DNA of 5,845 bases from Candidatus Poribacteria bacterium (GTDB lineage: Bacteria; Poribacteria; DTPJ01; WJIO01), in NCBI GenBank assembly GCA_014730235.1, contig WJIO01000295.1, positions 1-5,845 of the forward strand. The letters are read 5' to 3'. Position numbers and translations under genes: made by a program. This document shows, piece by piece, positions 3,699 to 5,845 of this stretch (the stretch's first letter is position 1; each line of letters begins with the position of its first letter). The notes beneath the pieces are model-generated. The model made no database searches. It saw only the letters and a list, made by a program, of their open reading frames with translations, and was not told the DNA's origin.

Positions 3699-4700
3699 AT
3701 GGAATTGAATTTATTTGCATTTATTTGTATTTTATTGTTTTTAACAGCTATCACAACAACACAGATTTGTGCCGAGGAAACGAAATCTAAATTACCCGAA
3801 TATAACAACGGGATCGCTGCCAGATATCCGGGTGATGTGGGTATTGAGGAAAATCCCAGCGTTATTTTCTTTGAAGATTTTGATCGGGAATCCGTTGACG
3901 CTGCGGCTGAGAGATGGGATAATTGCAGCACCAAAGAGACTATGAAACTTACTTCGGATACTCCCAAATACAGCAGTGATGGAAAATCACTTATGATCAC
4001 CCATGTTGGTGGTGAGGGCACAGGTGGGCAGTTTTACACCCGTCTGCTACCCGGATACAAGCAGATTTTTGCCCGATTTTATGTGAAATTTCATCCCGAC
4101 TGCTGGCCCATACACCATTTCGGCACACATCTTGGTGGATATAATCCTCCAACCCCCTGGCCACAAGGCGGTGCAGGAAAAAGACCTGATGGCAACAAAC
4201 GATTTACAACCGGTGTAGAGCCATATGGCAAAAACTGGAACTGGGATTTTTACACCTACTGGCAGGGAATGCACGTTCATGGTGACGGCAACTACTGGGG
4301 TACTCCATTTCTTCAAGGTGTTAAAAAACCCAAAGTCATATTGGGTGAGTGGATATGCGTGGAAATGATGGTAAAGGTAAACGACCCGGTGGACGAATCC
4401 AACGGTGAACAGGCTTTCTGGATTGACGGCAAACTGTGGCGATATGATGGCCAGATTGTCAGTCACATTGGCAAGGGATTTCCAAAAGGCAAATGGACAG
4501 GCGGATGGTGGCATCCTGATAACACCAGTGAAGAAGGATTTGAGGGGTTTAAATGGCGCAGCATTGAAGAGCTGGCTGTAAATTATGTGTGGGCTTACCT
4601 GTATATCACCAAAGCTCCTGAAGGTTATGTGAGTAAAGTTTGGTTTGATAATATTGTTATTGCTACAGAATATATCGGACCTATTGAAGGGAATAATTGA
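3699..4700 (+). CDS. Secreted polysaccharide lyase-like (jelly-roll) protein, function unproven
   Basis: The 333-residue product has an N-terminal hydrophobic segment (about 5-20) followed by TQICA-EE, a plausible signal peptidase I site after A25; no lipobox is present. The mature part begins with GIAARYPGDVGIEENPSVIFFEDFD (split over 38-62), a pattern I recall from uncharacterised proteins of Planctomycetes and Poribacteria. The rest alternates beta-strand-like segments: GGQFYTRLL (109-117), IFARFYVKF (123-131), GEWICVEMMVKVND (216-229), GEQAFWIDGKLW (236-247), VWFDNIVIATEYIGPI (314-329). The layout fits a concanavalin-A-like jelly roll, as in polysaccharide lyase families such as PL14 or PL20. 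A tryptophan-, glycine- and histidine-rich middle (139-200, with HFGTHLGGYNP, WPQGGAGKRPDG and MHVHGDGNYWG) could form a sugar-binding groove. Catalytic residues cannot be assigned. AAGGTG at 3683-3688 lies 10 nt before the ATG, inside the end of the ftsB-like gene. A non-catalytic carbohydrate-binding role is possible. Confidence 0.85.
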   Translation: MELNLFAFICILLFLTAITTTQICAEETKSKLPEYNNGIAARYPGDVGIEENPSVIFFEDFDRESVDAAAERWDNCSTKETMKLTSDTPKYSSDGKSLMITHVGGEGTGGQFYTRLLPGYKQIFARFYVKFHPDCWPIHHFGTHLGGYNPPTPWPQGGAGKRPDGNKRFTTGVEPYGKNWNWDFYTYWQGMHVHGDGNYWGTPFLQGVKKPKVILGEWICVEMMVKVNDPVDESNGEQAFWIDGKLWRYDGQIVSHIGKGFPKGKWTGGWWHPDNTSEEGFEGFKWRSIEELAVNYVWAYLYITKAPEGYVSKVWFDNIVIATEYIGPIEGNN

Positions 4701-4742
4701 GATCATACTGAAATTATGTCTATCAAAATATGCATGCTCTCC

Positions 4743-4927
4743 ATTAATGTAATCGTTAAAAAATGGAAAATGTGTTTAGAAAATACCTTTATAATGATGG
4801 TAAATTACAAAATTTGTCATTCCTGCGAAAGCAGCAATCCAGTCTCCCAAGACAGTGTTTTTTCTGGATTCCTGCTTTCGCAGGAATGACAACTAAATTA
4901 TATCCATTTTTTAACGATTACATTAAT
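4743..4927. repeat. 185-bp structure bounded by a perfect 25-bp inverted repeat
   Basis: Positions 4743-4767 (ATTAATGTAATCG... ending ATGGA) and 4903-4927 (TCCAT... ending ATTAAT) are exact reverse complements over all 25 bases. The match stops cleanly on both sides (C4742 against T4928, A4768 against A4902). The copy-3 palindrome (4814-4892) lies inside, off-centre: 46 nt from the left arm and 10 nt from the right. The size and terminal repeats resemble a miniature inverted-repeat transposable element, but no flanking duplication is evident and no transposase is present. It lies between convergent genes and ends 9 nt before the oxidoreductase stop codon, so a role in 3'-end formation is also possible. 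Confidence 0.85.
4814..4892. repeat. Palindromic repeat, copy 3, with two-level hairpin symmetry
   Basis: The arms at 4814-4842 and 4864-4892 pair over 29 positions with one mismatch (C4835 against C4871), around a 21-nt loop ending in six T. Each half is also a hairpin: 4868-4887 is a perfect 8-bp stem ATTCCTGC / GCAGGAAT with a TTTC loop, and 4819-4838 is the same stem with a GAAA loop and one mismatch (C4822 against C4835). A single G-to-C change at 4835 explains both mismatches. The ends match copies 1 and 2. The 20-bp ATTCC...GGAAT unit is similar in plan to the dRS3 repeats of Neisseria, though not identical to them. No T-tract follows the stem on either strand. Confidence 0.9.
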
Positions 4928-4936
4928 TCAAAAATA

Positions 4937-5845
4937 TTAAAAAGTATGTATTTCTACATTTTCTTTTTTATTACTTTCCCTGGATACTAAAGCTGCATGT
5001 AATATCTCATTTGTGCGAAGACCTTCCAGTTCACTGGCATATAATGGAGTTCCTTTCTCAATAGCTGATATAAGATTCAGATAGGCTTCAGCCCGTCCGG
5101 GATATTTGTCTTTGGTTGATTCAAACTTACTTGGTCCATCTGGTGTATGGATATTTGTACCGTTTGCATCCATAGATATTACCGCGTTCCTGCAAACTAT
5201 ATGGGTTGTCTGATGACCTAATTTAACCTGGGGTGGGAACGCCCATGACTTTGTGAATTCACCAATAGTTCCGCTTTCATATTCCACCATTAGAACTGCG
5301 TGGTCGTCGCTCTTTACCCTGTTGGTAACATCTACGCCAACATATGAAACCTGTTTAGCTTCCGACATCATGCAGGCCCGGGCAAATTCGATGAAGTGTA
5401 TGGAATAATCGAAGATAGGTCCGCCGCTTTTTTCCATGTCGTGCATCCAGTGATCCAGGGAAACCCACCCATAAGGTGTGGAAAGGTTTGTATGTATAAA
5501 TGCCGCAGGAGCACCAAATTTCCCGCCTTCTATAGCCTTGACAATTTTACGCATCCCGGATGAAACAGCTCGGGCAAAGGGTATAAAGCATTTTACACCA
5601 TTATCTCTTACAGAATCACATATAGTCAGAGCATCTTCCAATGTCCTGGCCATAGGCTTTTCCACCATCAGATGCTTTCCGGCGGCACATGCTTTTTTAA
5701 CATACTCAGCCCGGGCAAAAGGAGGGGTGGCAAGGGTTACAATATCCACATCATCAGATTCAAATATAGCATCCGGATTATCAAGAGTCTTTGCACCAGT
5801 TTCAAAAGCCGCTGATTCAGCTAATTCAGGTTTAATATCATATAC
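4937..5845 (-). CDS. Gfo/Idh/MocA family oxidoreductase, N-terminus outside the window
   Basis: This is a predicted NAD(P)-dependent sugar or cyclitol dehydrogenase. The open frame continues unbroken to the window edge, giving 302 visible residues (first codon at 5845-5843). About the first 30 residues, with the GxGxxG dinucleotide-binding loop, are missing. Visible residues begin VYDIKPELAESAAF, the second strand and helix of the Rossmann fold. They continue through DDVDIVTLATPP (31-42) and GKHLMVEKPMA (56-66), which holds the catalytic-lysine EKP motif (62-64). The C-terminal alpha/beta domain has EGGKFGAP (106-113) and GGPIFDYSIHFIE (141-153), whose Asp146 and His150 fit the conserved active-site D-xxx-H. 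A GTG at 5747-5749 is in frame but is not the start, because homologous sequence runs upstream of it. The substrate cannot be told. The gene converges on the lyase-like gene across the nested repeats. Confidence 0.93.
   Translation of the reverse strand, partial: VYDIKPELAESAAFETGAKTLDNPDAIFESDDVDIVTLATPPFARAEYVKKACAAGKHLMVEKPMARTLEDALTICDSVRDNGVKCFIPFARAVSSGMRKIVKAIEGGKFGAPAAFIHTNLSTPYGWVSLDHWMHDMEKSGGPIFDYSIHFIEFARACMMSEAKQVSYVGVDVTNRVKSDDHAVLMVEYESGTIGEFTKSWAFPPQVKLGHQTTHIVCRNAVISMDANGTNIHTPDGPSKFESTKDKYPGRAEAYLNLISAIEKGTPLYASELEGLRTNEILHAALVSRESNKKENVEIHTF

Follow-up and report, generated by a model that had tools for sequence, protein, structure and literature searches.

A perfect 25-bp inverted repeat in a Candidatus Poribacteria genome as a probable copy of a dispersed MITE family

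Described relatives in kind and the Poribacteria locus

The Correia or NEMIS elements (CREE) of Neisseria come in sizes of ~154-156, 105-107 and 69-73 bp, which differ by an internal block (PMC2649163, PMC2229807). In Acinetobacter, the ~113-bp MITEAba12 has ends that match those of the co-resident insertion sequence ISAba12, and its movement has been seen (PMC6382973). The repeat family that we describe here, from a Candidatus Poribacteria genome (5.53 Mb, fragmented into 451 contigs), resembles both. Like Correia/NEMIS it is short and non-autonomous, with terminal repeats of similar length, a target duplication, a high copy number and discrete sizes. The Neisseria elements differ in their unrelated ends and their insertion at TA, and their mobiliser is not established in the two papers cited above. 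In place of a TA duplication, the Poribacteria family shows 5-7-bp duplications of various words, and it comes with a candidate transposase and an internal near-perfect hairpin. The likeness to MITEAba12 lies in the match between the ends of the MITE and those of a resident insertion sequence, but MITEAba12 has 16-bp ends, 9-bp duplications, a parent present in several copies and an unrelated sequence. Because ends and duplication lengths differ, the family belongs to neither Correia/NEMIS nor MITEAba12 and is a new example of a known element type. A literature search found no description of this repeat.

The copy from which we started lies in the window, by which we mean the whole 5,845-nt stretch analysed (contig C234). 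Its two apparent arms, at 4743-4767 and 4903-4927 with 135 nt between them, are reverse-complementary at every one of their 25 positions. In 500 first-order Markov windows of matched composition no exact inverted repeat within 300 bp was longer than 16 nt, which bears out the initial annotation in placing the 25/25 match beyond chance. That annotation was also correct about the convergent neighbours, which are a protein of 333 aa with no match in Pfam (3699-4700, + strand) and a Gfo/Idh/MocA oxidoreductase (4937-5845, - strand), and about an off-centre inner palindrome, whose arms (4814-4842 and 4864-4892) are 97% complementary. The parts of the locus are as follows.

4743-4748, no strand: left target-site duplication ATTAAT, same as 4922-4927 (5-7-bp duplications in 48/59 copies)
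4749-4767, + strand: left 19-bp terminal inverted repeat GTAATCGTTAAAAAATGGA (318 sites at no more than 3 mismatches, 9 for the reversed pattern)
4768-4813, + strand: long inner arm of the MITE, from an alignment of 52 copies
4814-4892, no strand: inner hairpin of the long type, stems 4814-4842 and 4864-4892, loop 4843-4863, inverted relative to other long-hairpin copies
4893-4902, + strand: short inner arm of the MITE, from the alignment of 52 copies
4903-4921, - strand: right 19-bp terminal inverted repeat, family end sequence
4922-4927, no strand: right target-site duplication ATTAAT, identical to the left one
4763-4990, + strand: 75-aa ORF crossing the element, which we take to be spurious

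Each 25-bp arm thus consists of the 19-bp terminal repeat and the 6-bp duplication, and the arms reach 25 bp because ATTAAT is its own reverse complement and adds 6 bp to each; the element itself measures 173 bp between the duplications. Palindromic duplications of this kind make up 2 of the 19 six-base ones in the family. The aligned copies mostly pair an A at position 18 of one terminal repeat with a G at that position of the opposite one, leaving most of them imperfect over the 19 bp; the window copy has G in both ends, which completes the match. The perfection of its arms is therefore partly an accidental extreme of the general pattern, and the selection on 25-bp pairing that had been suggested gives way to a terminal repeat extended by a palindromic duplication.

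Copies, target duplications and distribution

The block gave 165 BLAST matches in the host genome. The end pattern GTAATCGTTAAAAAATGRA is present at 318 genome sites when up to three mismatches are allowed, compared with 9 sites for the reversed control, and its first 17 bases occur exactly 144 times, against none in the control. The family comprises over a hundred copies in the host genome, and the arm is far from confined to a single site. Our census of copies drew on 554 kb of contigs together with the loci around the matches. From these we rebuilt 61 end pairs, 59 of them shorter than 300 bp; the reconstructed copies span 57-202 bp and fall mainly into classes of 84-91, 120-134 and 169-183 bp, with sizes of ~91, ~124 and 173 bp corresponding to no hairpin, a short one and a long one. 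Identical flanking words of 5-7 bp border 48 of the 59 elements (26 of 5 bp, 19 of 6 bp and 3 of 7 bp), whereas shuffled right flanks gave a mean of 1.5 and a maximum of 8 in 2000 shuffles. These duplications, 85% A+T, were found in each of the three size classes. A further 39 ends had no partner in the sampled contigs, so many copies must have been rearranged or cut.

Two copies interrupt recognisable repeats. L002, on contig C161, is inserted in another member of the family, and its flanks, once joined, agree with the uninterrupted locus L083 in 64 of 65 positions across the join and contain ATAAT only once. The repeat that L013 interrupts belongs to a third family, several copies of which are uninterrupted. 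These empty sites are paralogous, lying inside other repeats of the host genome, the nearest genome compared being of the same order only. Many copies are 0-1.6% off the arm consensus, and some, such as L052, L002, L004 and the window copy (L001), are under 1%; such low divergence fits a recent spread, and the family has apparently been active recently.

The elements are therefore short, lack a transposase gene, share dispersed terminal repeats and target duplications, and have filled and (paralogous) empty sites in L002 and L013, while an autonomous element with matching ends resides in the same genome (C228:12327-13637). This upholds the MITE-like or composite reading of the initial annotation, as do the searches it had proposed: the arm and the block recur through the host genome, forms with the inner palindrome (~124 and 173 bp) and without it (91 bp) both exist, and a transposase gene with matching terminal repeats was found. 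We consider it very probable that the feature is a copy of a non-autonomous DNA transposon, most likely mobilised by the C228 element, with arms brought to 25 bp by the palindromic ATTAAT and with the hairpin as a passenger.

A search of 83 further Poribacteria genomes did not return the family. In 57 relatives the inner hairpin alone gave matches (in G001, G003 and G040), and the ends gave none. End look-alikes are few in other Poribacteria; the 20 regions that we read, from 9 genomes, mostly lie at gene starts, and we rejected them as family members, as they are unpaired and none has a target duplication. As far as sampled, the family appears to be confined to the host lineage, and the hairpin would seem to be older, or wider in its spread, than the family.

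Candidate mobiliser and competing explanations

The 1311-bp insertion sequence at C228:12327-13637 has the same ends as the MITE around an ORF of 402 aa. The ORF matches DDE_Tnp_1 above the Pfam cut-off and DUF772 just below its cut-off, and IS1182 is its best NCBIfam match at 46.4 bits, far under the cut-off of 270. It is thus IS1182- or IS5-like in having DUF772-like and DDE_Tnp_1 regions, and its nearest named relative, an Alicyclobacillus transposase, is 28% identical. In the alignment with the latter, D143 (WDSVP), D245 (LLVDQ) and E358 (RRLIE) are conserved and would form the predicted catalytic triad. The duplications of IS1182 are reported to be variable, from 2 to 60 bp (PMC7335449). 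No relative of the C228 transposase was found among the 83 other genomes of the phylum or in the genome collection, and a plasmid search returned one distant relative whose ends were not recognisable. The element is likely to be the mobiliser of the family. The little-studied phylum thereby gains a defined MITE family and, for it, a named candidate mobiliser, which makes transposition directly testable. A longer candidate element, at L114:2977-5766, was set aside: its genes resemble sugar-nucleotide and sugar-transfer enzymes, and it has neither a transposase nor a duplication.

We envisage that a transposase acting in trans, most likely that of C228, binds and cuts the element at its 19-bp terminal repeats, and that the element enters AT-rich sites with duplication of 5-6 bp of the target. 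At the window locus the target would have been ATTAAT, a palindrome that would have brought each arm of the inverted repeat to 25 bp. The inner TGTCATTCC hairpin would travel as a passenger, in short and long forms and with loss in some derivatives, and probably has no required function. The window copy probably lies where it does because a gap between convergent genes can take an insertion without harm.

Several features of the C228 element leave room for the possibility that another transposase, from an element with identical ends, moves the MITE: the C228 element is present in a single copy in the genome, has no matching target duplication at its ends and has only its terminal repeats in common with the MITE. 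The contigs that we read contain no second transposase element with these ends, however, the remaining genome having been searched with the C228 transposase alone, and we regard a different source as rather unlikely. Far less credible is the proposal, also made in the initial annotation, that the block is a bidirectional terminator serving the two converging genes and maintained by selection for base pairing. Its RNA would indeed fold very strongly (-81.7 kcal/mol, z -16), and its DNA strongly too, and the distances from the element to the ends of the two genes are 48 and 15 nt. Against this, there is no terminator-like site in window positions 4500-5200 and no T-tract after the stem, so the region lacks the GC-rich stem and trailing T run that mark an intrinsic terminator. 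By simple ORF calls, moreover, only 2 of 50 family copies with a clear gene context lie between convergent genes (37 are in tandem and 11 in divergent contexts), compared with 43 of all 345 intergenic gaps; location between convergent genes is not a property of the family. The outer pairing is accounted for by terminal repeats and a palindromic duplication. For want of a convergent excess and a terminator-like site, and with no Rfam match for the block at the gathering threshold, we rejected the terminator and RNA-element readings; a side effect of the window copy on transcription is possible.

The remaining alternative makes the TGTCATTCC palindrome itself mobile, inserted into an older, hairpin-less MITE of 91 bp, much as had been suggested for this element. 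It draws on the existence of a 91-bp form with target duplications and on the recurrence of the same hairpin in relatives as well as in another MITE family. Yet we counted 77 TGTCATTCC hairpins in the 554 kb of contigs (~770 if scaled to the genome), and every one of them adjoins sequence of a larger repeat on one or both sides, with none free-standing. The hairpin also occurs in all divergent subfamilies of the main MITE, while the 91-bp copies fall within one, for which loss between AATTACAA and AATGACAA is the simpler account. The hairpin thus looks ancestral to the main family and not newly inserted, and the 91-bp form appears to have arisen by deletion between those two motifs, on an argument of parsimony as opposed to a full tree. 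We therefore hold insertion of a mobile palindrome to be decidedly improbable, and keep the reading of the hairpin as an old passenger of the MITE.

The inner hairpin beyond the main family

A second MITE family, whose ends resemble GGYTCTTCCGGGTTTAGTGTGG, accounts for many of the TGTCATTCC hairpins. For this family we reconstructed 43 pairs; 16 of these have an exact duplication (8 bp in 12 cases), against a shuffled mean of 1.2. The palindrome occurs in both families and is therefore a common module. One 121-bp element of the second family (L111:7230-7350) is nested in the end region of a main-family copy (L111:7104-7369) and is flanked by the 8-bp duplication TCATTTTT.

The stems of the hairpin show an unusual pattern of change. 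Among 17 long-hairpin copies (loci L002-L030), seven stem pairs carry pairing-preserving changes on both sides (8 cells, a level that none of 500 shuffles reached). Our preferred explanation is templated correction of one stem arm by the other, since selection at the RNA level is unlikely to act on each of these scattered MITE copies. In the window copy the loop (4843-4863) is inverted with respect to all other long-hairpin copies that we read, and in the short-hairpin class both loop orientations are present. Together, the compensatory changes and the loop inversion suggest homogenisation of the palindrome at the DNA level. That such compensatory changes occur in scattered copies, which probably have no function, also carries a more general caution, namely that covariation in a DNA palindrome is not by itself proof of a functional RNA.

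A main-family flank on one side and an other-family flank on the opposite side were present in 11 of 30 sampled hairpins with a main-family flank, which suggests that mixed-family elements arise by exchange at hairpins, though assembly errors are possible. It is conceivable, and we put this forward only tentatively, that the TGTCATTCC hairpin is a DNA-level hot spot in several unrelated MITE families, at which stems are repeatedly corrected to match each other, the loop inverts and recombination between hairpins of different families yields elements with an end from each and reshuffles the chromosome.

Individual loci with one main-family end, the hairpin and an other-family arm are L085, L089, L102, L104, L109, L112 and L119. 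The window itself holds two further hairpins. The stretch 1761-1875 comprises a second TGTCATTCC hairpin and, after it, the right half of an element from a different MITE family, with the end CCACATTCAACCCGGAAAGACC at 1854-1875 and the left end missing; members of that family measure ~120-164 bp and have 8-bp target duplications. At 6-54 lies a hairpin of the TTCAAGC type with perfect 24-bp arms, and its flank, beginning TAGAACTATATTCTTTGAGC, recurs beside other hairpins and probably represents yet another repeat family.
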